Shown: positions 22,462-37,957 of the stretch, one piece after another | Layout of the letters: every line of letters starts with the position of its first letter | Position numbering within the stretch: position 1 is the stretch's first letter | IMG/VR virus record: IMGVR_UViG_3300029893_000035 | Span: 299 to 38,555 of that record | DNA: 38,257 bases | Reading direction: 5' to 3' (one strand) | DNA from: a virus | Notes under the pieces: model-generated | What the model saw: only the letters and a program-made list of their open reading frames with translations | The model's database searches: none | Told to the model about the DNA's origin: nothing | Program-made: the position numbers and the translations under genes

Positions 22462-23841
22462 TTATGCTATGGTATATTTTGCAAGGGCTTTTCGTAGCGA
22501 TTGCTGGTTGAATTCTTTATCTGCCAAAACGTCATCCACCAAGGTTTCAACCGTGTCTTGAACGATCATCCGATAAATAAGCACCGGTTTTGTCTGACCC
22601 ATGCGATACAACCGGCCATTGGTCTGCCGGTAATAGTCGTTATGCCAAGGGATCGTGAGCCATACAAGAATGCGCCCACCATGCTGTAAATTGATACCGT
22701 GACCTACGCTTCCGGGGTGAATAAAGAGAAGTGGGATTTTCCCTTTATTCCAATCTTCAATTATCCTGGCGGCTTCCTTGTCGTAGGTATCGGGGCCAAG
22801 GATCGGCACCCCTGGGAATTCGTTTTTGATTGTGGCATGTTCATGCTTGTACCAATACGCCACCATAACCGGCTCGTCTATATCTTCAATGAATTCCTTG
22901 AGTGTGTCCATTTTCTCACTGTGAACGATGCGGGTATCTCCGTTGCTGTCGTAGACCGCACCGCTTGCGATTTGTCGGCACTTCTCCGTTGCCACTCCAG
23001 CATTGCCGCCGACCACATACCCGCTATCAATCTTTATCACCATGTCCTTTTCAAATTCATCGTATATCTTCATTGCCGATTTTGGCATGATAATTGGAAT
23101 CGTATGTTCAAGCATGCGCGGCAATTCAAGGTAATCCTCTGCCCGGATCGTATAGGTGATATCCGCAATAAGCTTTTCTATTTCCTCTTGCGCCCAATCT
23201 TTCGGCTTTATATCGTAATGGTTGTATGGGTTGATTTCCAAATACCTGTCGCGGAAATGCGTAACAAACTTCATCAGACGTTGCCCGCCGTCGAGCAAGC
23301 GATATTGTGACCAAAGGTCTTGCAACCGCTCAGGGCTCGGAGTGCCTGTCAATTCCACGATGCGGCGGAATCGGTTGGAGTCGGCAAGGGGCTTCAATTC
23401 CTTGAACCGCTTGGAGGCTGGGCTTTTCAATTTGCTGGATTCGTCAAGCACCAGCATGTCAAATGGCAATTGCCGCTTGGCTTGTATCTCCGACCGGACC
23501 CACTCAACCCACCATGGCAGCCAATCATAATTGAGGATGTAGAAGTCTGAGCGGAGGCGTAATTGTTGGATGCGCTCCGCTTCCGACCCACGCACAACAA
23601 TATGGCGCAGCTTGCGGAATTCGTCCCACTTCCGCAATTCATCCGGCCAAGCCACCGTCGCCACCTTGAGCGGAGCGAACACCATAACCCCGCGAATATC
23701 GAAATTGTCGAGCAATTCTTTACAAGCCGCAATGGTCGTAGCGGTCTTTCCCGTTCCGATATCCATATGCAGAGCGCACCGCTTATGCTTCTCGACAAAT
23801 CGGCATCCTGTCTTTTGATAATTATGCAACGCCAATTTCAT
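22462..23841 (-). CDS. SNF2-family DNA helicase / translocase
   Basis: Helicase motifs appear in order: a Q-like start (LHNYQKTGCRF), Walker A MDIGTGKTATT (residues about 26-36), LVLDESSKLK as Walker B (131-139), ELTGTPSPE (163-171) and, near the end, QTNGRLYRMGQTKPV as motif VI. The ATG at 23841 was chosen because it overlaps the VRR-NUC stop (ATGA) and has ACGGAGT upstream; a TTG at 23862 is less likely. The 459-aa size fits phage SNF2 proteins paired with VRR-NUC genes. It probably remodels DNA during replication or recombination. Confidence 0.92.
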   Translation of the reverse strand: MKLALHNYQKTGCRFVEKHKRCALHMDIGTGKTATTIAACKELLDNFDIRGVMVFAPLKVATVAWPDELRKWDEFRKLRHIVVRGSEAERIQQLRLRSDFYILNYDWLPWWVEWVRSEIQAKRQLPFDMLVLDESSKLKSPASKRFKELKPLADSNRFRRIVELTGTPSPERLQDLWSQYRLLDGGQRLMKFVTHFRDRYLEINPYNHYDIKPKDWAQEEIEKLIADITYTIRAEDYLELPRMLEHTIPIIMPKSAMKIYDEFEKDMVIKIDSGYVVGGNAGVATEKCRQIASGAVYDSNGDTRIVHSEKMDTLKEFIEDIDEPVMVAYWYKHEHATIKNEFPGVPILGPDTYDKEAARIIEDWNKGKIPLLFIHPGSVGHGINLQHGGRILVWLTIPWHNDYYRQTNGRLYRMGQTKPVLIYRMIVQDTVETLVDDVLADKEFNQQSLRKALAKYTIA

Positions 23842-24107
23842 AGATACTCCGTCACAAACCAATCAACGTCGCCCTTATTCCACAACGTAAATACCTCGGC
23901 TCCGCATTCCTTCATGCGGGTCTGCATCAATTTCTGAACCTTGCTTACGTTGCCTTCGTCCCGCTTCAATTCGATGAAATACACCTTACCTTTGTGGATG
24001 ACAACCCGATCCGGAACCCCGTTGAGAGAGCTACGGAATTTGAGGCACATGCCGCCGCACTCGGCAACACGGGCATTCAAATGCCGTTCAATGGTTTTTT
24101 CTAGCAT
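23838..24107 (-). CDS. VRR-NUC domain nuclease
   Basis: The 89-aa protein is a minimal VRR-NUC nuclease: N-terminal EKTIERHL, GVPDRVVI with Asp33, and KVYFIELKRDEG with Glu46 and Lys48, the PD-(D/E)XK active-site pattern, then a QKLMQTRMKECGAEV helix. Stand-alone phage VRR-NUC proteins act as structure-specific nucleases, for example on branched DNA. It is coupled to the SNF2 gene by a 4-nt overlap and to the gene before it by a 20-nt overlap. Confidence 0.9.
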   Translation of the reverse strand: MLEKTIERHLNARVAECGGMCLKFRSSLNGVPDRVVIHKGKVYFIELKRDEGNVSKVQKLMQTRMKECGAEVFTLWNKGDVDWFVTEYL

Positions 24108-24381
24108 ACCGTACCGTTATCTTGGTAATCTCAGCAAGCAAGAGGCTGCGCCGGATGGCACATATACGGGTCGCCGCACGGTCGATGATATCCCGGCGTA
24201 CCCCCTTCTCCCGGTTCAATTCCCGATAGATAATATATGTGCAGTCGGCTTCGTCCAGCTTGCCAACGTGTCCACCGAATTTCGCCCAATTGGAGGAAAT
24301 GCGGTCGAGGAATTCTTTACGTTCCTTAGGCGGATTATCGATGGCTCGCAATAGCCATTCTGGAAGGTCGCTTAGACGCAC
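24088..24381 (-). CDS. 97-aa protein of the replication operon, unknown
   Basis: The protein is helical and basic at its end (RLSDLPEWLLRAIDNPPKERKEF, CTYIIYRELNREKGVRRDIID, ITVRYARKNH). It overlaps its upstream neighbour by 10 nt and the VRR-NUC gene by 20 nt. It might be a small partner of the nuclease or polymerase, but no family is recognised. Confidence 0.55.
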   Translation of the reverse strand: MRLSDLPEWLLRAIDNPPKERKEFLDRISSNWAKFGGHVGKLDEADCTYIIYRELNREKGVRRDIIDRAATRICAIRRSLLLAEITKITVRYARKNH

Positions 24382-24653
24382 GGCAGATGCCCAAGGGTGT
24401 TGATAGCCTCCCTAGCAATATCGTCCGCATCCTCGCCTTCCTTGCATTGGCAAATCCTGCCAAGCTGCGCCATCAGTAGGACGCTTACGCTAGTGCGGGT
24501 GCTAACCTCCGGGTCAGGAAGGGAAATAATATGAGCATCCTTCAAAGCGTTAGCGATGACTGTTGCCGCCATGCGTGCGGTATCTACGTCCGCTCCCTGG
24601 CTCTGGACGATCATAGTTGTTATGATCGCTACAGTGTCGGTGTATTTGCTCAT
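24372..24653 (-). CDS. 93-aa protein after the polymerase gene, unknown
   Basis: This mostly helical protein (YTDTVAIITTMIVQSQGADVDTARMAATVIANALKD) starts at an ATG overlapping the polymerase stop (ATGA). It has two Cys close to each other (ICQCKEG) and an acidic stretch. It lies between the polymerase and nuclease genes, so it may be a replication accessory factor; this is from position only. Confidence 0.55.
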   Translation of the reverse strand: MSKYTDTVAIITTMIVQSQGADVDTARMAATVIANALKDAHIISLPDPEVSTRTSVSVLLMAQLGRICQCKEGEDADDIAREAINTLGHLPCV

Positions 24654-26530
24654 GCCTTAGCCTTTCGCTTGGTTCGCTTGGTGATGGACTCGACAAGGCG
24701 GGTTGCCTCATCGATATAATATTGGTAATCAATGTCGCTCGGTAAGGACGTTGGAAGGTCGAGGATCAGACATGCGCGCTCCCCGTTTGGAAGCTTGGTA
24801 TATGAACCGTCCTTGTCTTTGCGCTGGACCGTGGCGGCGGATTCGTCGCTGGTGCGATACCATCTAGCGATGCGACCTATTTTGTTGTCTCCATGGTACA
24901 AATCGCCTCCGTTCTTGACCCTTTGATAAAAGACAAAATCGCGGATATCGGTTGAAGCTTCCACGGTTTCACGTATAGGCTTGCTGTGTAAAAGCCATTC
25001 CTCGGCAGCCTTTTTGATAATGCGTTCATCCGTCTTGCCGTTGTCGGGGGCCGGATTGAATGCCCCTTTGTATTTTATCTTTCCGTCGATCTTTTGCGCG
25101 ATGTAATTATTTACGTCCCTGCGGCAATACGTTTGGTATTCCGCTTGCTCCAATTGATGACCGGTAATCTTCTCCCATTCCTTTGCAATATCATTTATGA
25201 TATGTAATCTGTCCCGATGCCACATGCACGTAATGCCGTCTGTATTCGCACTTAGGAGGCGAACCCCGGCAACCTCAAGCATTTCAGCCAGCATGAGGAT
25301 TTCCAATTGTCCGTTGACGGTGACGCGCATAGCGTTGACGCACGTACGGAGCGGAGAATAAATATCGTTGAATTTGCCAAATGTCGAATTCGCTACGATC
25401 TTCAAAGCATTGGCGTCCGTTGTGCGACCTTCCTTTTTGGCCTTGACGCGCATGTCTCGGATTTCTCGGAAGTCTTGAATAAATTGCGGTCCAAGGTGCT
25501 TTGGAAACAGATTCTCAACGATCATCAGAGAGGGGTAATAACTCGTAACGTCGAGGTCGATAATGGCAACGTCCTTGCTGCCATAGAAACGCCCCGGAGC
25601 ATCGTCACTATGGATTCCGCCGACTCCGATTTTATATTGGAGTCCACCTAGTTGGATGGGGTCGGCAAAAGCCGGGATCGGGTTTCCTTTCTTATCCTTC
25701 ATCCCAGCCAAAGACGGGTGACGATATTCCCATTGCTGGTTCTTATCGTCGGTCGAAACCAATTCACATTCACGCATGAATTTGTAAAAAGCTTTGAATT
25801 CCGGAGTCGTATAGCGAACACGCTTGCTCGCAATCTCAGGCATGGGCCAAACGCATATCGTGTTCTCGTCTGACTTGGCAGCCATCTTGCGGGCGACCGT
25901 TGACCAATTCCCCGTGCGCTTATTATATTTATCAATCAACAATTGCTGGGCAATGCCAGCGTCACCGTTGACAAATACACGGTCATTCAATTCAAACATT
26001 TCCTTTAGCTTCACCCTGAGGGTTACGTTTTCCTTATATGTCTGATACAGGTTCCAAACCGCAATAACGTCATTGCGGCAGTAGCTACGGATTTGCTTGA
26101 ATTTGTCTTGAGGCAATGGGGCGTTGAAATCAACGTTAGCCTCTTTCACCGATGGCATATGCTCCCGGCATTCCCATTCCTTGAGACTGCCTTTCTTATT
26201 TAAGACTTGGTACATATCTACGGAACGCGCCCATTGAACGGGACTATATTGCAGCTTCCAAATGGAGTCCGGATAACGCCCCGATTCGATCATAGTCTTA
26301 CTGAGTTTATAAACGTCCTTTTCAGTGATCTTGATATCATCCAAAATGACACGCAACAAAACATCATCGTAACTAAAATTATTATACCCAATAAGAATGC
26401 AATGCTTACTGACAAACTTACGCAACTCCGCGTATTGCGTTTGATCGAATTCATAGAAATCCTTACCATCATAGAACACAATGAGGTTGAGGTTGCTGAA
26501 AACCTCCATGTCGTAAGCTAGGATTATCAC
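24650..26530 (-). CDS. DNA polymerase family B with 3'-5' exonuclease
   Basis: The 626-aa enzyme shows the exonuclease motifs: ExoI YDMEVF (Asp7, Glu9), ExoII YNNFSYDD (Asp55) and ExoIII YCRND (Tyr150, Asp154). The polymerase motifs follow: GGIHS near 304, motif A DVTSYYPS (Asp327), motif B KIVANSTFG (377-385) and motif C SANTDGI (Asn429, Asp431). The usual DTDS of motif C is NTDG here. Only about 43 residues separate motifs A and B, so the TPR2 insert of protein-primed polymerases is not seen. It is coupled by 4-nt overlaps to the genes on both sides. Confidence 0.93.
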   Translation of the reverse strand: MIILAYDMEVFSNLNLIVFYDGKDFYEFDQTQYAELRKFVSKHCILIGYNNFSYDDVLLRVILDDIKITEKDVYKLSKTMIESGRYPDSIWKLQYSPVQWARSVDMYQVLNKKGSLKEWECREHMPSVKEANVDFNAPLPQDKFKQIRSYCRNDVIAVWNLYQTYKENVTLRVKLKEMFELNDRVFVNGDAGIAQQLLIDKYNKRTGNWSTVARKMAAKSDENTICVWPMPEIASKRVRYTTPEFKAFYKFMRECELVSTDDKNQQWEYRHPSLAGMKDKKGNPIPAFADPIQLGGLQYKIGVGGIHSDDAPGRFYGSKDVAIIDLDVTSYYPSLMIVENLFPKHLGPQFIQDFREIRDMRVKAKKEGRTTDANALKIVANSTFGKFNDIYSPLRTCVNAMRVTVNGQLEILMLAEMLEVAGVRLLSANTDGITCMWHRDRLHIINDIAKEWEKITGHQLEQAEYQTYCRRDVNNYIAQKIDGKIKYKGAFNPAPDNGKTDERIIKKAAEEWLLHSKPIRETVEASTDIRDFVFYQRVKNGGDLYHGDNKIGRIARWYRTSDESAATVQRKDKDGSYTKLPNGERACLILDLPTSLPSDIDYQYYIDEATRLVESITKRTKRKAKA

Positions 26531-27354
26531 GCTTGATTCTCCGTTGCACCGGGGCGGCTAATGACTTTATATTTCAAATTATATTCACCCGTCCATTCAC
26601 GATCCCCGACATAGGTCGGCCTTCTAATTATTATTTGCCCTTGTTTATTTACATACCTCGGGCTTAGCAAATGCATTGTGTGCCCCCTTCTCAAATGTGG
26701 TGCAGGGGATGAGTGTGTGCCTCCCATGTTGACCCGCTGAGCATATTTAAATTTCAATTGATCGAAATTTAGAATTATAAATCTTTCCCTCTGATGAAAT
26801 CTTCTCGCTTTCTTAGGTGAATTTGGAATGGAACGGGGGCTTTCTGAAACGACGTAATGAAGTGGACTCTGGATTAGAAAATAGCATTTCATAATCAGAC
26901 CAAGATCATTCGCTAGGTTATCCGCTCCATCGACATTGGATAAATTCGGCTCCCTTACGAAATAGGTCATATCTTCTCCTGCTCTATGATCCATTTCGTG
27001 TGTGGGATAATACATTTCCGGTGAAATCGCAAAACTACGGAGTAATTTAGTCTCACCTTGATAAAATAAAACACTAGCTTGCGCAGATATTGGATAGTCG
27101 GGGCGGGAAAAGTCTATTTTAATCCATGAAAGTCCAACGCAGCCGTCATGTAGCATCGTTTTAACCCTAAGTATTCCATTCGGGAGTGCGAAAGTTATGC
27201 ACCCGTCGATAAACACGGAAGGATCTACTTCCTTCGGGTGATTATCGAAAATATACAATGGCCCATTGTTCAAATCTAAAATAGGATCGTTGCTTGTTTC
27301 TTTCAATTCGTCGAATAGAGAGGCGGATAAATTATAATGTTCCATCGGGGTCAT
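26527..27354 (-). CDS. AcrVA2-like protein (possible anti-CRISPR relative)
   Basis: This 275-aa protein has an N-terminal alpha/beta region and a C-terminal motif PHLRRGH (219-225) followed by basic residues and RRPTYVGDREW. As I recall it, the anti-Cas12a protein AcrVA2 ends with the same P-H-[IL]-R-R-G-H motif and a similar basic, proline-valine tail, and has the same order of parts before it (beta region, ~LIxxCYFL hydrophobic helix, linker). AcrVA2-like proteins are widespread in phages without CRISPR targets, so the general role may differ. AAGGAAAC lies 7 nt before the ATG. The gene starts only 19 nt after a tRNA and overlaps the polymerase gene by 4 nt. Confidence 0.5.
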   Translation of the reverse strand: MTPMEHYNLSASLFDELKETSNDPILDLNNGPLYIFDNHPKEVDPSVFIDGCITFALPNGILRVKTMLHDGCVGLSWIKIDFSRPDYPISAQASVLFYQGETKLLRSFAISPEMYYPTHEMDHRAGEDMTYFVREPNLSNVDGADNLANDLGLIMKCYFLIQSPLHYVVSESPRSIPNSPKKARRFHQRERFIILNFDQLKFKYAQRVNMGGTHSSPAPHLRRGHTMHLLSPRYVNKQGQIIIRRPTYVGDREWTGEYNLKYKVISRPGATENQA

Positions 27355-27373
27355 TGTCGTTTCCTTGGTGTTT

Positions 27374-27447
27374 TGGTTGGGGGAGTGGGAATCGAACCCA
27401 CATACCGGGAGTCAAAGTCCCGTGTCCTACCGTTGAACGATCCCCCA
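27374..27447 (-). tRNA. tRNA-Gln (anticodon TTG), with encoded CCA
   Basis: On the minus strand the sequence folds as a cloverleaf: acceptor TGGGGGA (27447-27441) with TCCCCCA (27384-27378), an anticodon arm CGGGA-CTTTGAC-TCCCG giving anticodon TTG (27415-27413), and a T arm GTGGG-TTCGATT-CCCAC. Position 73 is A and the CCA end is encoded (27376-27374). The tRNA lies inside the leftward operon, between the DUF2815 and AcrVA2-like genes, so it is probably cut from the common mRNA. It would support reading of CAA/CAG codons. Confidence 0.95.
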
Positions 27448-27453
27448 ATGGTT

Positions 27454-27477
27454 GAGCCCACCTTAGCCGGTGGGCTC
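27454..27477 (-). terminator. 9-bp hairpin between the DUF2815 gene and the tRNA
   Basis: GAGCCCACC (27454-27462) and GGTGGGCTC (27469-27477) form a perfect stem with a TTAGCC loop on the plus strand. No T-run follows on either strand, so it may be a processing stem beside the tRNA or a partial terminator rather than a complete one. Confidence 0.5.
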
Positions 27478-27501
27478 TGGAATCAAAGAGCAAGCGAAAG
27501 A

Positions 27502-28119
27502 CTAAAGCGGAGCCTCGTCATTGTCGGAAGGCCGACGCTTTCCCTTGGGCGCGGAATCGTCGCCATCCTCCGGAACCTCGTCAAACTCATTCTCAGTAAA
27601 CCGCGAACCGCCGAATGCATCATCGTCCGCGACCTTGAGAATGCCGCTCAGACTGACGGACACCCCCTTGCCCCCCTTGGGGTTGCTCCATGCGTAGACC
27701 GATACGGAAGCGTAGTACCAAGCGCCCGAATAAATCTCCCGCTCGGACTCCGGAGCCCGCTTGGTGCCGTCACTGTCCTTGACCATGATTCCCGGCTGCG
27801 CGGTTGACTTGGCGGGGATGATCCATGCCCCCTCAAATTCAGGACGGGCATTGCCATCGTTGTCCGTGTATTCGTCCCCGTCGCGGATCGGATAGTGCTT
27901 GCACTTGTCGAAAGGCAGCGGCTTGCCGAATTTATCGGTCATGGCCTTTCTGAATTCGGACTCAAGCTTGGCAATGAATGCCTTGCTGTCCTTGCTGTCC
28001 TTGGGAAGTACGATGGTGATACCGTACTTTTCCTCTCCATCGTCGCCAACGCGACGGGGCTTGAATACCGTGACATAGCTGCCACGGAATTTCGGTGTAA
28101 GAAAGCGGGTTGCCGCCAT
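27502..28119 (-). CDS. DUF2815 single-stranded DNA-binding protein
   Basis: The 205-aa protein matches the DUF2815 pattern: TPKFRGSYVTVFKPR, EKYGITIVLPKDSKDS, KHYPIRDGDEY and YSGAWYYASVSVYAWSNPKGGKGVSVSLSGILKVADDDAFGG. The fold is a beta-barrel for single-stranded DNA, and the tail is strongly acidic (ENEFDEVPEDGDDSAP...DNDEAPL), as in SSB proteins that recruit partners. It follows the DUF2800 gene by 14 nt and has AAGGAAT before its ATG. It is part of the conserved phage module with DUF2800, polymerase, VRR-NUC and SNF2 genes. Confidence 0.88.
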   Translation of the reverse strand: MAATRFLTPKFRGSYVTVFKPRRVGDDGEEKYGITIVLPKDSKDSKAFIAKLESEFRKAMTDKFGKPLPFDKCKHYPIRDGDEYTDNDGNARPEFEGAWIIPAKSTAQPGIMVKDSDGTKRAPESEREIYSGAWYYASVSVYAWSNPKGGKGVSVSLSGILKVADDDAFGGSRFTENEFDEVPEDGDDSAPKGKRRPSDNDEAPL

Positions 28120-28133
28120 GGGATATTCCTTGC

Positions 28134-29369
28134 TCAGAGGTTGTGTACGTTGTCGTTCTCGTTGTCGATGCCTCTGAATTCATCGGCAATTGAGAAACTA
28201 GGTCTTGGGTCATCTGCGCTCGCCACGGTCGCGGAGCCCTTAGGCTTGACCGTGTGTTGACGCATGAATTGCTCACGCTTGGTCTTGTCGCTAAATAGGT
28301 TTTCGATCTTGCCAATTCCCAGGAGTGACCGGGGCGCGTATTCGTCGGCCTTGAAGCCAAGACGATACAACGCCTCCATGACGTTACCTTCGGAAGCCCA
28401 CTTGCGATTACTCTTACCCTCAACCAATTTGAGTCCGGGGACATTTTCCCCGCGCATCAATTCGTTATAAATATAATCTCCAATACCCTTGAGCCATGCG
28501 CGGACTTCCTCCCCAGCCTTCCAGATATTGATAATTTCATCCATCGTCAGGGAATTGAAATGCGGAGTCTTTACCGATCCGTCCTTGGCGATTTGTTCAA
28601 AATCAATAGCGGCTTGCTCCGTTGCGAATTTCGCATATGTCTTGCATTTACCCTTGGCGGGACACCACTGGCAGCCCTTTTCGCTGGCTTTGAATTCGAC
28701 ATTGCCCGCTTTGATTGCCGCGACGATTTCAACAATGCGATTACGAAAATGCTTGAGTCCGTCAATGGTATCCTCCCATTCCTGCGCATCCTCGCAGCTA
28801 CGGGGTTGCCAAATGACGAGGGTGATCCGCGTGACGGTATCCCACCAATTTTCCTCATCCATGAAGCCGCAGGCATAGAGGCGCATTTGACGATTTTTGA
28901 CAGGGCTAACCGGCACCCCCTGCCCGTACTTCAAATCTACCACAATAATATGATCGTCCTTGCGCAACACTACGTCACACGTTCCAACGTCCCCGGTGCA
29001 ACGGATCTTCACTTTGCGTTCATGGTACAATTCATATCCGTCAAGTACCTTTGCCTGCACCCACTCAAATACCAATCCAACCGCATTGCACATTTCATTA
29101 TCGGCCTTGAACCGCTTATTGAAGGTCTTTCCCTTGAAATTGATTGGATGCTTGTTCTTGCGCAAGCTAAGGTCCAATAACTCATGCGCGGCGGTTCCTT
29201 CGTCCGCCGCCTCCGTCCGCTTGGACTCAAGCCCTAGCTCGGCAATATAGGACGGTTGAGCGGTACACGTTGCCCACGTATCCGCCTTGCTTGGAGAGAA
29301 AATCTTAGCGTGGCCGCGCTCCGCGTGTGCGGGGTCGGACACAACCTTGGAAATGAGTTTGCGAGGCAT
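28134..29369 (-). CDS. DUF2800 PD-(D/E)XK exonuclease, probable Fe-S enzyme
   Basis: The 411-aa protein shows the DUF2800 start FSPSKADTWATC with Cys35, DEGTAAHELLDL with His62, CDVVL (Asp132), VVDLKYGQG (Asp145, Lys147) and RQMRLYA (Gln161). After the nuclease core come Cys233, Cys236 and Cys242 in GCQWCPAKGKC. One Cys before and three after the core is the Cas4/AddB arrangement that holds a 4Fe-4S cluster. The likely role is 5'-3' processing of DNA ends in replication or recombination. It shares a TAATG junction with the gene before it. Confidence 0.88.
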   Translation of the reverse strand: MPRKLISKVVSDPAHAERGHAKIFSPSKADTWATCTAQPSYIAELGLESKRTEAADEGTAAHELLDLSLRKNKHPINFKGKTFNKRFKADNEMCNAVGLVFEWVQAKVLDGYELYHERKVKIRCTGDVGTCDVVLRKDDHIIVVDLKYGQGVPVSPVKNRQMRLYACGFMDEENWWDTVTRITLVIWQPRSCEDAQEWEDTIDGLKHFRNRIVEIVAAIKAGNVEFKASEKGCQWCPAKGKCKTYAKFATEQAAIDFEQIAKDGSVKTPHFNSLTMDEIINIWKAGEEVRAWLKGIGDYIYNELMRGENVPGLKLVEGKSNRKWASEGNVMEALYRLGFKADEYAPRSLLGIGKIENLFSDKTKREQFMRQHTVKPKGSATVASADDPRPSFSIADEFRGIDNENDNVHNL

Positions 29370-30445: not shown

Positions 30446-30847
30446 TCAGATATCGTCGCCGCCGGCCTTGTCCAGCTTGGCGATCAGATTCTTGAAATGC
30501 ACGATAGCTTGAGGAAGGTCTTCGTCCGGGACAACCTTGCTCGACTCACCGTAGAGCTTCATGGCCTTTTGGGCTTCCTCGCGGCTCGTCTTTTCCGCGT
30601 ACGCATTGGCGACCTTGCGAAGCTCGGCCCGCTTGGGGTGATCCTCAGTAATCGTCTTGTCATCCTCGGCGGGGGTATCGTCGCCCTTGCCAGCCTTGGG
30701 CGGACGCCCCGGCTTGCGCTTGGGCTCGGCATCGCCGCCATCATCCTTGGGGGGCGCAGTATCGCCACCAGCGGCAACCTTCATGATTTCCGCCATGGCT
30801 CCGTAATGGAAGGCCAGCTTGCGGAGTAGGTCAGGGGTGAGGGTCAT
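30446..30847 (-). CDS. AT-hook DNA-binding protein B
   Basis: The start was set at ATG 30847 (MTLTPDLLRKL...), with AAGGAA close upstream; an earlier start at 30916 would run through the operator-like region. The 133-aa protein has an N-terminal helix, one AT-hook (KRKPGRPPK), then an acidic region and a C-terminal helical domain (HPKRAELRKVANAYAEKTSREEAQKAMKLYG), ending GGDDI. The shared C-terminal tip with protein A suggests common descent or a common partner. Probably a nucleoid-type or regulatory protein. Confidence 0.7.
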   Translation of the reverse strand: MTLTPDLLRKLAFHYGAMAEIMKVAAGGDTAPPKDDGGDAEPKRKPGRPPKAGKGDDTPAEDDKTITEDHPKRAELRKVANAYAEKTSREEAQKAMKLYGESSKVVPDEDLPQAIVHFKNLIAKLDKAGGDDI

Positions 30848-30890
30848 AAATTCCTTTTCCGGCGTGGCCGGGGTTAGGGTTCGCTCGTAA

Positions 30891-30916
30891 GGTATGACAG
30901 GTTTGCATATGGTCAA
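30891..30916 (-). promoter_or_regulatory. TTGACC box with a GGTATGACA operator-like element
   Basis: On the minus strand TTGACC (30916-30911) is followed after 11 nt by TGTCATACC (30899-30891). The element is a one-base variant of the GGTATGGCA repeat of the 36.9-37.2 kb region and also occurs before the ribbon-helix-helix gene. This may be an internal promoter and operator for the AT-hook genes. No good -10 box was found. Confidence 0.4.
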
Positions 30917-33808: not shown

Positions 33809-34237
33809 TTATCGATGAATTGCGAGGGGAATTGGACACCCCCCGACCGGGAGTGTTCCGTCGCTAAGACGGGTGACGAGACAACGCATGGTGTTTCCCT
33901 TTCTGGAAACGGGGTTGGCGATGATAAACGCAGAATTGAGCGGGCTTGCGACGGGGCATAACGCCCCATTGCTTGAAACAACCCGGATGGCGGCATGTAC
34001 GGGTCGTTCTGAAACAAATGGGATCATCAATTTTTGTTTATTCTGCCGCGCATAAATAATCATAATCTTTTCAATCTTATATGCTGATTTTCCATCGGCT
34101 TGCCAGAAGGCATTATCCTTCGCGCATTTCCTGGCTTCCCACCTTGTATAGAAAATTTGGCTCCTGTAAAAATGACCATCCCGATACATGCATACCCATG
34201 CTGCTTCACTGGCGATACCTATTTTGTTGAATTTCAT
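33809..34237 (-). CDS. 142-aa protein, possibly two joined small genes
   Basis: The N-terminal half (MKFNKIGIASEAAWVCMYRDGHFYRS..., FYTRWEARKCAKDNAFWQADGKSAYKI) looks like a compact alpha/beta protein. From about residue 90 the sequence is less regular, and at residue 117 an internal ATG (33889) has AAAGGG upstream and could start a separate 26-aa stretch. The start overlaps the ribbon-helix-helix gene stop (ATGA). The function is unknown, and the true boundary between the two parts is uncertain. Confidence 0.5.
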   Translation of the reverse strand: MKFNKIGIASEAAWVCMYRDGHFYRSQIFYTRWEARKCAKDNAFWQADGKSAYKIEKIMIIYARQNKQKLMIPFVSERPVHAAIRVVSSNGALCPVASPLNSAFIIANPVSRKGNTMRCLVTRLSDGTLPVGGCPIPLAIHR

Positions 34238-34407
34238 GGCGCGTCCGCGTCCATATAGGCGTCAATAATCCGCCGGATCAATTCGGAACGTCCGATTTTG
34301 ATATGAAATCCTTTGGTCGAGAGGTAGCGGATTTGTCGATCCGTCAGGCAGACGATCACACGCTTTACGTGCGTCTTGCCATCCGGATCCTTCGGGGGTC
34401 GGCCCAT
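34234..34407 (-). CDS. ribbon-helix-helix (Arc/MetJ/CopG-type) regulator
   Basis: This 57-aa product heads the leftward operon. Residues 13-22 (HVKRVIVCLT) give the DNA-binding strand, then DRQIRYLSTKG and GRSELIRRIIDAYMD form the two helices of a ribbon-helix-helix fold. AGGAG lies 8 nt before the ATG. Such proteins bind DNA as dimers and often repress their own operon. A GGTATGACA element lies 25 nt upstream, a likely operator. The stop overlaps the next start (ATGA). It may be the early-gene switch of the phage. Confidence 0.8.
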   Translation of the reverse strand: MGRPPKDPDGKTHVKRVIVCLTDRQIRYLSTKGFHIKIGRSELIRRIIDAYMDADAP

Positions 34408-34431
34408 GGGTATCTCCTAATTATGAAAACT

Positions 34432-34459
34432 TGTCATACCTAAAAACAGGGCCGGTCAA
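34432..34459 (-). promoter_or_regulatory. TTGACC box and GGTATGACA element before the ribbon-helix-helix gene
   Basis: On the minus strand TTGACC (34459-34454) is followed after 13 nt by GGTATGACA (34440-34432). It occupies the stretch where the leftward early promoter should lie, between the divergent ribbon-helix-helix and primase genes. A -10 box is not clear; CATAAT further on is a weak option. Confidence 0.45.
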
Positions 34460-34560: not shown

Positions 34561-34591
34561 AAACCCCGGAGGGACCGCCCCTCCGGGGTTT
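34561..34591. terminator. 12-bp hairpin between the divergent operons
   Basis: AAACCCCGGAGG (34561-34572) pairs perfectly with CCTCCGGGGTTT (34580-34591), with a 7-nt loop. It lies about 50 nt before the primase start. TTTTCGTTT follows on the minus strand and TTTGCG on the plus strand. It may be a bidirectional terminator, or an attenuator in the primase leader. Confidence 0.65.
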
Positions 34592-34640: not shown

Positions 34641-36791
34641 ATGCTGTCGCTATTCGCCAATGCAACCGCAAAGACCCCATATAAATCCCTCCCCGCCGAT
34701 GAAGCATGGCGGCTGCTGAGAAACCCCCCGGAGCGTGTCAAGCGAATTATTGAGCGGCTACGGGCAGAGCCCGACGAGTATAAGGCCAAGGAAATCAAGT
34801 GCGAATTGCCAGCGATAACATGGAGCGGATCATTCAGCCGGCGCGAGGCGGCGGGCTTGGTCGAACATAGCGGGCTCTACGTCTACGACATTGACGATTA
34901 TGGCGATGTGGACGCATGTTGTGTCGAATTGACCCGTTTACAGGAGAAGGCACTACCATGGATCGTCGGGGGGTTCGTCTCCCCCTCAGGAACCGGCTTC
35001 AAAGTCGTTTTGGCAGGGCCGACCGTCGAGGCGGGCGAGAGCGCAACGGCTGCCCATAAGGCTGCGTGGCACGCTGGCGCGGCCCTGCTGCGGGCATCCT
35101 GCGGCTGGACCCTGGACGCGGCTGCCGACCCCTGCCGGTTGTGCTTCCTGGGCAACGGGGAGGGGGTCTGGACGGCAGCCTACTATGAACCCTTCACGGT
35201 CGAGGAAGGGGAGGGGGCAGGGGACGGCGAGGCGGACAACCCGGACGGGGTGACGGTGGATGATATACCGGAGCCGACCAAGCGCAGCCTCCCCCTTGAC
35301 ACCGTTCGGGACATGCTGTGGACGGTCGGCGCGGATCGACCGTACGCGCAATGGCGCAACCTCCTGTGGGCAGTCATCGCAGAGGTAGGCAAGGACGATG
35401 ACGTTGTGGCGATGCTGGAGCGGTGGAGCCAGGAGACAGGCGGCGAGCGGGGACATTGGAGCGCCAAGGACCGGCGGCATTTCCACGATCTGATCAAAGC
35501 GGCCGGTGATGGTGAGGGGGTCACAATCGCCACCCTCGTCAAATTGGCGAAGGAAAAGGGATGGGTTGATTGGCGGCAGCGCCTCAAGCGCAATCAAAAC
35601 GGGAAGGTCATCAAATCCCAATTCAATATCGACGTTCTCTTGAAGCACCATCGGGCCATCAAAGGTCGCTTCCGCATGGATATATTCAGCGGTACGAAAG
35701 AGGTAGCCCCGTGCGCGGACTCTTGGTTCCATCCCAAGGGGGTTCCGGTGGAACGATGGTCGGCCCTGGACATGGAGGTTGGATTTGAACGGGAATATAA
35801 TATCAATGTCGGTACTGCCGATCAATGGTTGCTCGCCATGGAGGGCGAGGCGGTGAAGCACCCCTATAATCCCCGTGTTGATTATTTGAACGGGTTGCCG
35901 GCGTGGGATGGGGTTGAACGGGTCAAGGATCTATGGGTGAAGGGGTTTGGCGCGGAGCGTACTGATTTAGGGGCTGCCGTTGCGCGATGCTGGTTATGCG
36001 CAGCGGTCAAACGGCAATTCGCCCCCGGCACCCCGTTTCAAATCGTCCCGGTGTTGAAGGGTCCGGGTGGCACCGGCAAGACGGAGGGTTTGAAGATATT
36101 GGCGGGTAATCCATTCTGGATGGTCAATAGTAAAATTGATATGTCGAGCAAGGAAGGATATTCAGTCGTGCAGGGTGGCTGGATTGTCGAGTTAGCCGAA
36201 ATGGCGAACATGAAGCGCACCGATCAAGAGGAAATCAAAGCCTTCGTAACGCAGACGCATTGCCGCTTCCGCAAGCCATGGGACCGCAATCCCTCCGACG
36301 TTGCGGCAACATGGGTTTTCGTCGGCACCACCAATGAAGATCATTTCTTGAAAGATATGACTGGCAATCGACGGTGGATACCACTTGAAGTAAAAGGATT
36401 CGATGACAACGGCAAGGAAGGATTGCAATGGCTGGCCGCGCATCGGGATCAATTGTGGGCAGAGGCTTGCCATTATCTGAAAGGCGGCGCAGCCGAATGG
36501 GATTTGAACCCCAAATGGTACGTTGATGCCCGCAGGGCGCAGGATAATGCTTTGTATCTGAGTGAGGTTGATGTCGCAATTGGAGAAATGACGGGGCAAT
36601 ATGAGCGCATCGGTAAGGAAGCTACGTTGAGTATTCGGGAAATTGGAACGGCGGTTGGGTACGAGGCGCGAAATAGGTTGGAGGAAATGCAGATTGCTGC
36701 CGCGTTGAAGCATTACGGTTGGAAGCGGGATAATCGCGCCATGGTCAACGGGGTTCGGGTTATCCGCTGGCGTTATACCCCGCCTTTGTAG
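34641..36791 (+). CDS. VirE-type primase-helicase (BT4734-like primase, PriCT and VirE ATPase)
   Basis: Start ATG 34641 was chosen because MLSLFANATAKTPYKSL is the usual beginning of BT4734/VirE N-terminal domains; a GTG at 34530 lies upstream of a hairpin. The 716-aa protein has YVYDIDD (Asp83, Asp85), FVSPSGTGFKV (114-122), DPCRLCFL with Asp163 and Arg166, a PriCT-like segment (WRNLLWAVIAEVG) and the VirE ATPase with GPGGTGKT (474-481) and GTTNEDHFLKDMTGNRRWIPL. It is the likely replication initiator and helicase-primase. The first half is GC-rich, the second not. It is followed by a terminator. Confidence 0.88.
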   Translation: MLSLFANATAKTPYKSLPADEAWRLLRNPPERVKRIIERLRAEPDEYKAKEIKCELPAITWSGSFSRREAAGLVEHSGLYVYDIDDYGDVDACCVELTRLQEKALPWIVGGFVSPSGTGFKVVLAGPTVEAGESATAAHKAAWHAGAALLRASCGWTLDAAADPCRLCFLGNGEGVWTAAYYEPFTVEEGEGAGDGEADNPDGVTVDDIPEPTKRSLPLDTVRDMLWTVGADRPYAQWRNLLWAVIAEVGKDDDVVAMLERWSQETGGERGHWSAKDRRHFHDLIKAAGDGEGVTIATLVKLAKEKGWVDWRQRLKRNQNGKVIKSQFNIDVLLKHHRAIKGRFRMDIFSGTKEVAPCADSWFHPKGVPVERWSALDMEVGFEREYNINVGTADQWLLAMEGEAVKHPYNPRVDYLNGLPAWDGVERVKDLWVKGFGAERTDLGAAVARCWLCAAVKRQFAPGTPFQIVPVLKGPGGTGKTEGLKILAGNPFWMVNSKIDMSSKEGYSVVQGGWIVELAEMANMKRTDQEEIKAFVTQTHCRFRKPWDRNPSDVAATWVFVGTTNEDHFLKDMTGNRRWIPLEVKGFDDNGKEGLQWLAAHRDQLWAEACHYLKGGAAEWDLNPKWYVDARRAQDNALYLSEVDVAIGEMTGQYERIGKEATLSIREIGTAVGYEARNRLEEMQIAAALKHYGWKRDNRAMVNGVRVIRWRYTPPL

Positions 36792-36814: not shown

Positions 36815-36851
36815 GAACCCTGCCGGGAAATCTCGGCAGGGTTCATTTTTT
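36815..36851 (+). terminator. Rho-independent terminator after the primase gene
   Basis: GAACCCTGCCG (36815-36825) pairs with CGGCAGGGTTC (36834-36844), with loop GGAAATCT, followed by ATTTTTTG. It is a strong, complete terminator for the single-gene primase transcript. Confidence 0.88.
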
Positions 36852-36926: not shown

Positions 36927-37195
36927 GGTATGGCAGTCATTGCCATACCTAGGTATGGCAGTATAAGTCACGCATTCTCAATTATTTATATAATATTGCC
37001 ATACCTAATATATAAAGTCTAATCTTCTATAAAAAAGTAAGACATAGTATATTGGTAATTATTTATTTTACGGTCTACACCACACATGATGTATGGGAAA
37101 GATAGCCAATAGGTATGGCAGTATGGCAAATTCATGTAAACTCATTATGTTGTAATGGGTTATACTGCCATACCTAGGTATGGCAGGGTATGGCA
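36927..37195. repeat. cluster of GGTATGGCA elements, two perfect 20-bp palindromes
   Basis: GGTATGGCA occurs at 36927, 36952, 37112, 37177 and 37187 (a shortened copy at 37121), and its reverse TGCCATACC at 36941, 36997 and 37166. TGCCATACCTAGGTATGGCA is a perfect palindrome at 36941-36960 and 37166-37185. The region between is AT-rich and non-coding. The same motif with A for G (GGTATGACA) precedes two early genes. A protein-binding array for replication start or regulation is likely. Confidence 0.85.
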
Positions 37196-37360: not shown

Positions 37361-37610
37361 GGGGTAAAACAATTATGGGAAATCGGTAAAAATTAGTTTT
37401 TATGAACCCATTTTATCAATAAGAAATTCTAAAAATAATTATTTGTTGGCTGGAAATAACTCCCAGGGAATTTTCCGGCCGGGGTAAAACAATTATGGGA
37501 AATCGGTAAAAATTAGTTTTTATGAACCCATTTTATCAATAAGAAATTCTAAAAATAATTATTTGTTGGCTGGAAATAACTCCCAGGGAATTTTCCGGCC
37601 GGGGTAAAAC
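37361..37610. repeat. perfect 120-bp tandem duplication plus a 10-bp third edge
   Basis: Bases 37361-37480 and 37481-37600 are identical over 120 bp, and the 10-bp start GGGGTAAAAC is present a third time at 37601-37610. The unit is AT-rich, non-coding and contains short inverted repeats (TCCCAGGGA, GGAAA...TTTCC). It may be part of an origin or packaging region. The 10-bp repeat at each edge could have mediated the duplication. A library or assembly artefact is possible. Confidence 0.95.
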
Positions 37611-37618
37611 CGTCCAGA

Positions 37619-37740
37619 TTTTGAAATCTTTTCAAGTAATATTAGGTTATTTTGGGTGTTTTCAAGTTACCGGTATCTTGAAATCATTTTCAAGTTACCA
37701 GTATATTGAAATCATTTTCAAGTTACCCGATACTTGAAAA
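37619..37740. repeat. 28-bp iterons with inverted TTTTCAAG / CTTGAAA arms
   Basis: TTTTCAAG appears at 37629, 37659, 37687 and 37715 (spacing 30, 28, 28). The inverted arm TTGAAA follows each of the last three, at about 37678, 37706 and 37734. Units are TTTTCAAGTTACC then a variable stretch and TTGAAATCA. Regular direct repeats with an internal dyad, in an AT-rich region beside the primase gene, are typical of initiator binding sites, so this is a candidate origin. Confidence 0.8.
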
Positions 37741-37957
37741 TACCCGGAAGGGTTATTGTTTCCGGCATCTGATAAATACCCGGAAGGGGCGGGAATGTCA
37801 ACGGGAAAATTCCCCCGATCCGGTCCCCGCTCCGGTCCGCCGGATTATCCGGTGATTGTGAGTGATTACGCAAAGGGGGAAAATACCCTTATCGGTACCG
37901 GACAATTCCCGGACGCTGGCGGACGTAGCGGGAATTATGAGTTATTGGAAAATACCC
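37736..37957 (+). repeat. scattered AAATACCC direct repeats
   Basis: AAATACCC occurs at 37738, 37774, 37881 and 37950, the first two followed by GGAAGGG. A shorter AAATACC lies at 37987. The copies run from the end of the iterons through the small ORF at 37795. They could be another binding site set or a remnant of duplications. Confidence 0.5.

Follow-up and report, generated by a model that had tools for sequence, protein, structure and literature searches.

Genes and repeats at the vapE locus

The window analyzed here is a stretch of 38,257 nucleotides (positions 299 to 38,555) of IMG/VR virus record IMGVR_UViG_3300029893_000035. The record spans 38.6 kb and contains TerL as well as an extended series of late-type genes that point rightward; as an element it does not fit the definition of a PICI, a small phage satellite lacking a full set of virion genes of its own. 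A run of Ns is located at G000:C1:289-298 of the parent record, just left of the window, which makes the contig a scaffold with a gap.

The window encodes a VapE-family primase-helicase of 716 residues, composed of a BT4734-like N domain, PriCT_2, and a VapE-like domain (Table 1). The VapE-like domain matched PF05272 in Pfam with an E-value of 2.7e-60, and the protein matched PDB entry 7pds with an E-value of 2e-31; the latter is the solved structure of a VapE homologue, named 'similar to D. nodosus vapE'. The small leftward gene that the initial annotation described as encoding a ribbon-helix-helix (RHH) protein is present upstream of vapE. Between the two genes, about 50 nt before the VapE start, a strong GC-rich hairpin (34562-34590; CCCCGGAGGG/CCCTCCGGGG) is possibly a terminator or attenuator.

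Table 1. Location of genes, candidate operators, and iterons in the window.
Feature	Position	Strand	Basis or remark
First gene beyond the 30890 site; its product has an AT-hook-like GRPPK stretch	30446..30847	-	sequence; shorter ORF translated
Candidate operator AGGTATGACAGGTTTGCATA, upstream of AT-hook gene	30890..30909	+	includes motif 30891-30899
TTGACC, possible -35 of AT-hook operon promoter	30911..30916	-	consensus match only
Small RHH-like protein, 57 aa	34234..34407	-	translation; relative in L015
Candidate operator AGGTATGACAAGTTTTCATA, upstream of RHH-like gene	34422..34441	-	includes motif 34432-34440
TTGACC, possible -35 of RHH-like gene promoter	34454..34459	-	consensus match only
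VapE-family primase-helicase, candidate origin initiator	34641..36791	+	Pfam PF08800, PF08707, PF05272
Terminator-like hairpin, end of VapE gene	36815..36844	+	between vapE and iterons
Iteron, left set	36927..36935	+	motif count
Iteron, left set	36941..36949	-	motif count
Iteron, left set	36952..36960	+	motif count
Iteron, left set	36997..37005	-	motif count
AT-rich gap between iteron sets, candidate melting site	37006..37111	.	base composition
Iteron, right set	37112..37120	+	motif count
Right-set iteron, variant AGTATGGCA; forms an overlapping direct repeat, 8-bp pitch	37120..37128	+	motif scan
Iteron, right set	37166..37174	-	motif count
Iteron, right set	37177..37185	+	motif count
Iteron, right set	37187..37195	+	motif count

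Distribution of the repeated motif

Copies of GGTATGRCA were counted over the window and in shuffled sequence. The window contains 10 copies, compared to 0.58 expected, and no shuffle reached 10. Eight exact GGTATGGCA copies lie in a cluster at 36927-37195 together with the variant at 37120-37128; of the nine copies that the initial annotation reported at 36.9-37.2 kb, eight are therefore exact and the ninth is the variant. The sole two copies outside the cluster, GGTATGACA at 30891-30899 (+) and 34432-34440 (-), are located exactly where that annotation placed them. The excess over chance stands for the window as a whole and not for these two sites (2 copies versus 0.48 expected, Poisson P about 0.08); the excess comes entirely from the cluster. 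Position 7 of the motif is G in all copies of the cluster and A in both promoter copies, and the cluster and the two promoter sites are two different elements.

An origin-like layout downstream of vapE

The iteron unit of the window is AGGTATGGCAG. The nine iterons are arranged as 4 + 5 on either side of a gap of about 108 bp that is 72% AT; in 100-nt windows the GC content at the gap is 26-27%, and the gap holds the AT maximum of the span. The first iteron is found 135 bp downstream of the VapE stop codon, past the terminator-like hairpin. Inverted pairs of iterons are separated by 2 bp when head-to-head and by 5 bp when tail-to-tail. A search for DnaA boxes (TTWTNCACA) in 36.8-38.2 kb gave no match, and an origin of the DnaA-box type was rejected for this reason; no Rfam element was found in the non-coding region. 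The resemblance of this region to a replication origin, already suggested in the initial annotation, is borne out by the iteron sets, the AT-rich gap, and the placement 3' of vapE. For Streptococcus thermophilus phages, an origin adjoining the primase gene has been described.

In SaPIs, the C-terminal domain of the Rep helicase binds iterons located directly downstream of the helicase gene (PMC7581432). In every PICI origin, an AT-rich region is flanked by two iteron sets and the whole is located 3' of the gene for the initiator; this layout was stated to occur in no other known bacterial replicon (PMC6092414). The window shares with these origins both the position directly 3' of an initiator helicase gene and the multiple short iterons in two sets around an AT-rich gap. 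Its candidate initiator is related to the self-loading Rep type, self-loading being only predicted here. It differs in that the locus is part of a 38.6-kb phage contig, the helicase is a VapE-type fusion with a primase, and the unit is AGGTATGGCAG; the resemblance to PICIs is limited to the layout of the origin. In SCCmec, the isolated C-terminal domain of the Cch2 helicase likewise binds repeats of a putative origin just downstream of its gene, as proposed here for VapE; however, these are three 5-nt AAGTG direct repeats, the primase is a separate protein, and the element is a genomic island and not a phage (PMC7581432).

We infer that the cluster is a replication origin of the SaPI/PICI layout to which the neighbouring VapE binds, and we consider this reading likely. 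VapE, encoded just upstream, would bind the AGGTATGGCAG iterons, probably via its C-terminal domain, assemble on both iteron sets, melt the AT-rich gap between them, and, as the replicative helicase, load itself. The binding, melting, and loading steps are suggested by the SaPI and SCCmec precedents.

Survey of vapE loci in other phages

Two collections of vapE loci were examined. The first was a panel of 18 named VapE phages, picked for diversity before the repeat search; the second consisted of 80 VapE loci from IMG/VR (L039-L118), obtained with a separate query and reduced to 17 representatives below 70% identity. Each locus was scanned in 400-nt windows, both strands included, and its strongest 8-mer cluster was recorded. 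Among the named phages, the strongest cluster was located directly 3' of vapE in 8 of 18 (Dina, NatCom_18656, GaryLarson, LFP01, SA137, P738, LPPA36, and PS3) and directly 5' of vapE in BcepNY3; the VapE loci of EC99P2, BV57P2, BF486P2, Javan453, ctHz2215, and ctUhy936 had no such cluster. In the IMG/VR representatives, the strongest cluster lay at most 700 nt 3' of vapE in 14 of 17 loci (including two weak ties at 3 copies), versus 1.03 expected from position. The same placement was found in 12 of the 14 representatives with at least 4 copies.

The iteron units often follow the frame AGGT-NNN-GRCAG. The unit is AGGTTGGGCAG in L047, L070, and L109, AGGTGGGRCAG in L084, AGGTTTTGCAG in L095, and GGTGGGACAG in phage LPPA36. 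Many of the surveyed loci contain two mainly opposed iteron sets around a gap, and the AT maximum falls within the largest inter-iteron gap in 14 of 21 loci. VapE-family phages, for example L047, L070, L109, L084, and L095, thus repeatedly carry PICI-like iteron arrays of origin layout 3' of vapE, and the linkage of this layout to vapE extends across phages. A layout described in print as exclusive to phage-inducible islands is found repeatedly next to vapE in many larger phages, and the iteron units vary from phage to phage. We found no report of a PICI-like origin layout in VapE phages in the open-access papers searched. The recurrence provides a simple means of locating origins in VapE phages; the loci also supply natural origin-initiator pairs with which DNA recognition by VapE-type helicases can be tested.

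Repeat arrays also serve as partition (centromere-like) or other protein-binding sites, and further repeats adjoin the cluster (37361-37745). The strong and recurrent location 3' of vapE, the agreement with the published SaPI/PICI layout (PMC7581432, PMC6092414), and the lack of a partition gene among the proteins checked make it very improbable that the cluster serves such a function and is not an origin. A host protein or another phage protein could bind the repeats instead of VapE. By linkage, VapE is the best candidate for the protein that reads the iterons.

Among the usable sequences of the survey, iteron similarity correlates with VapE similarity. For the VapE C-terminal domain, the partial correlation with the iterons was 0.40 (P 0.001) when all of the 19 sequences that could be used were included; after near-duplicates were removed it was 0.13 (P 0.12). 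We do not claim a covariation of the iteron with the C-terminal domain, as significance was lost upon dereplication. The model of this domain, of moderate confidence, has two helices followed by short strands and is compatible with a winged helix; a structure search against the PDB yielded no match at E <= 0.001.

The window VapE shares only about 27-37% identity with the relatives compared. An alignment of nine VapE sequences was too divergent for use as a search query. Close relatives were looked for with four proteins (VapE, the DNA polymerase, the RHH-like protein, and the DUF2800 protein) and with two DNA elements (the 20-bp origin palindrome and the promoter operator), and none near enough for footprinting was found. 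With VapE relatives this distant and no close relative, the exact origin cannot be footprinted by conservation. The best relatives of the DNA polymerase are 40-42% identical; in their records no VapE was found, nor was a match to the small protein, though the latter alone shows little.

A candidate operator at two leftward promoters

The two promoter copies of the motif are part of a longer element that the initial annotation overlooked. The promoter sites agree at 18 of 20 bases and form a pseudo-palindrome, AGGTATGACANGTTTNCATA, which can be written AGGTATGACA-R-GTTT-K-CATA. The element does not occur elsewhere in the window, origin included, even when 3 mismatches are allowed (0.05 expected). 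In a comparison of 44 upstream regions, these sites were the only pair with 18/20 identity, and such a pair appeared in 1 of 60 shuffled sets; judging from these counts, the 20-mer common to both promoters is unlikely to be due to chance. The inner part of the element, TATGACA-nnn-TTnCATA, forms an imperfect palindrome of 17 bp that would suit a dimer; at the RHH-like gene it lies 14 nt upstream of the start codon. The halves of the operator are separated by 3 bp, tail-to-tail.

The TTGACC that had been noted beside both promoter motifs is found 11 nt from the 30891 site and 13 nt from the 34432 site; the motifs, however, have opposite orientations relative to their genes. A common promoter -10 element was ruled out on account of this orientation, and the operator element is not simply a common -10 box. 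The GGTATGACA sites would instead belong to a distinct pseudo-palindromic operator of 17-20 bp that overlaps two leftward early promoters.

The frequency of the 9-mer outside the origin (2 versus 0.48 expected) would allow the two sites to be coincidental matches without a common reader. Both sites, however, are situated just upstream of leftward genes and near a TTGACC, and agree at 18 of 20 bases, as seen in only one of 60 shuffles; we regard coincidence as rather unlikely.

The small RHH-like protein

A search of the genome collection gave a single relative of the 57-aa protein, a MazE-like antitoxin in L015 with 41% identity over 39 residues. This antitoxin meets the Pfam RHH_1 cut-off. 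The 57-aa protein itself had no PHROG or NCBIfam match, no Pfam match up to an E-value of 10, and no convincing match in the PDB. A single-sequence model gave helices at residues 23-31 and 42-55 and no strand (pLDDT 64, a poor model). Because its relative matches RHH_1, an RHH fold is likely, if unproved; because its own sequence has no match to an RHH model, we call the protein RHH-like and do not assign it to the family.

The RHH protein MazE6 controls its own gene by binding 18 bp of operator at the -10 region of the promoter (PMC9477884). The candidate operator at 34422-34441 is comparable in size. MazE6, however, belongs to a toxin-antitoxin pair (PMC9477884), and no toxin gene was identified beside the RHH-like gene of the window. 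Since RHH antitoxins bind operators of similar size at their own -10 regions, self-repression of the RHH-like gene via 34422-34441 is plausible; the 17-bp pseudo-palindrome 14 nt before the start codon likewise makes a dimeric RHH protein plausible at this promoter, as the initial annotation had proposed, whereas its extension to the origin repeats is unsupported. The RHH-like protein is the likeliest reader of the operator, and may repress both its own gene and the AT-hook gene, the product of which has no family match. This is a serious possibility that we advance tentatively.

The plasmid pRN1 of Sulfolobus has a similar combination of genes: a small CopG-type regulator (orf56) for which binding to its own promoter has been proposed, and a large primase-helicase (orf904) with the origin downstream of the replication gene (PMC4234260, PMC3869888). 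It differs in that a common transcript covers orf56 and orf904, a stem-loop of 100 nt takes the place of iterons at the origin, and the plasmid is archaeal (PMC4234260, PMC3869888).

Which protein reads which sites

Alternatively, the two promoter sites could be outlying iterons to which VapE itself binds, repressing the early genes once replication begins. AGGTATGACA(G) fits the iteron frame, the G/A at that position varies in other origins (for example AGGTGGGGCAG and AGGTGGGACAG in L084), and both sites overlap putative promoters. However, three relatives whose iterons are clean have no iteron copy beyond the origin anywhere in their records, the remaining scanned loci contain at most one, and the common GTTTNCATA extension would be left unexplained. 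Binding of VapE to the promoter sites is therefore unlikely.

The initial annotation envisaged a single regulon, in which one small protein controls early transcription and the origin. The 10-base core AGGTATGRCA is common to both classes of sites, the origin contains inverted pairs, and the leftward gene nearest to vapE is that of the RHH-like protein. Against binding of the RHH protein to both classes, iterons of the same frame adjoin vapE in phages where no RHH protein could be detected: RHH_1 was found in 0 of 13 iteron-bearing VapE records, with positive controls, in a search that the window's own protein would also escape, and tblastn with the RHH-like protein against the panel gave no convincing relative (best E-value 0.18). 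In addition, position 7 distinguishes the two classes, the 20-bp operator is missing from the origin even at 3 mismatches, and the spacing of the inverted pairs differs between origin and operator. Because iteron clusters adjoin vapE in records without an RHH_1 match, RHH binding of the origin is unsupported, and with it the model of one protein and one regulon. Coupling of early transcription with replication through the RHH protein at both classes of sites is highly unlikely; of the models considered, the one with RHH binding at the origin has the least support.

The probable origin with the repeated motif most likely belongs to the neighbouring helicase-primase and not to the small DNA-binding protein. 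The speculative one-protein regulon gives way to a testable origin-initiator pair. In a broader reading, which we consider doubtful, iteron origins with the PICI layout would be general to VapE-family phages, and the iteron-like sites at the early promoters would here let VapE or the RHH-like protein couple replication and early transcription.

Neighbouring repeats and the replication module

To the right of the origin, the non-coding stretch 37361-37600 is a perfect 120-bp tandem duplication, either real or an assembly artefact. At 37629-37745, three 28-bp near-palindromic repeats (TTTTCAAGTTACCNGTATNTTGAAAT-like) and a half copy form a second, unrelated set beside the origin. Further to the left, a replication module at 22462-29369 encodes a DUF2800/PD-(D/E)XK exonuclease, the g27 protein, a DNA polymerase, the small g23 protein, and a SNF2 helicase. 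This module is present as a block in phage MW202897 at 35-45% identity; that phage also has genes annotated as pyrimidine hydroxymethylase and glucosyl transferase.
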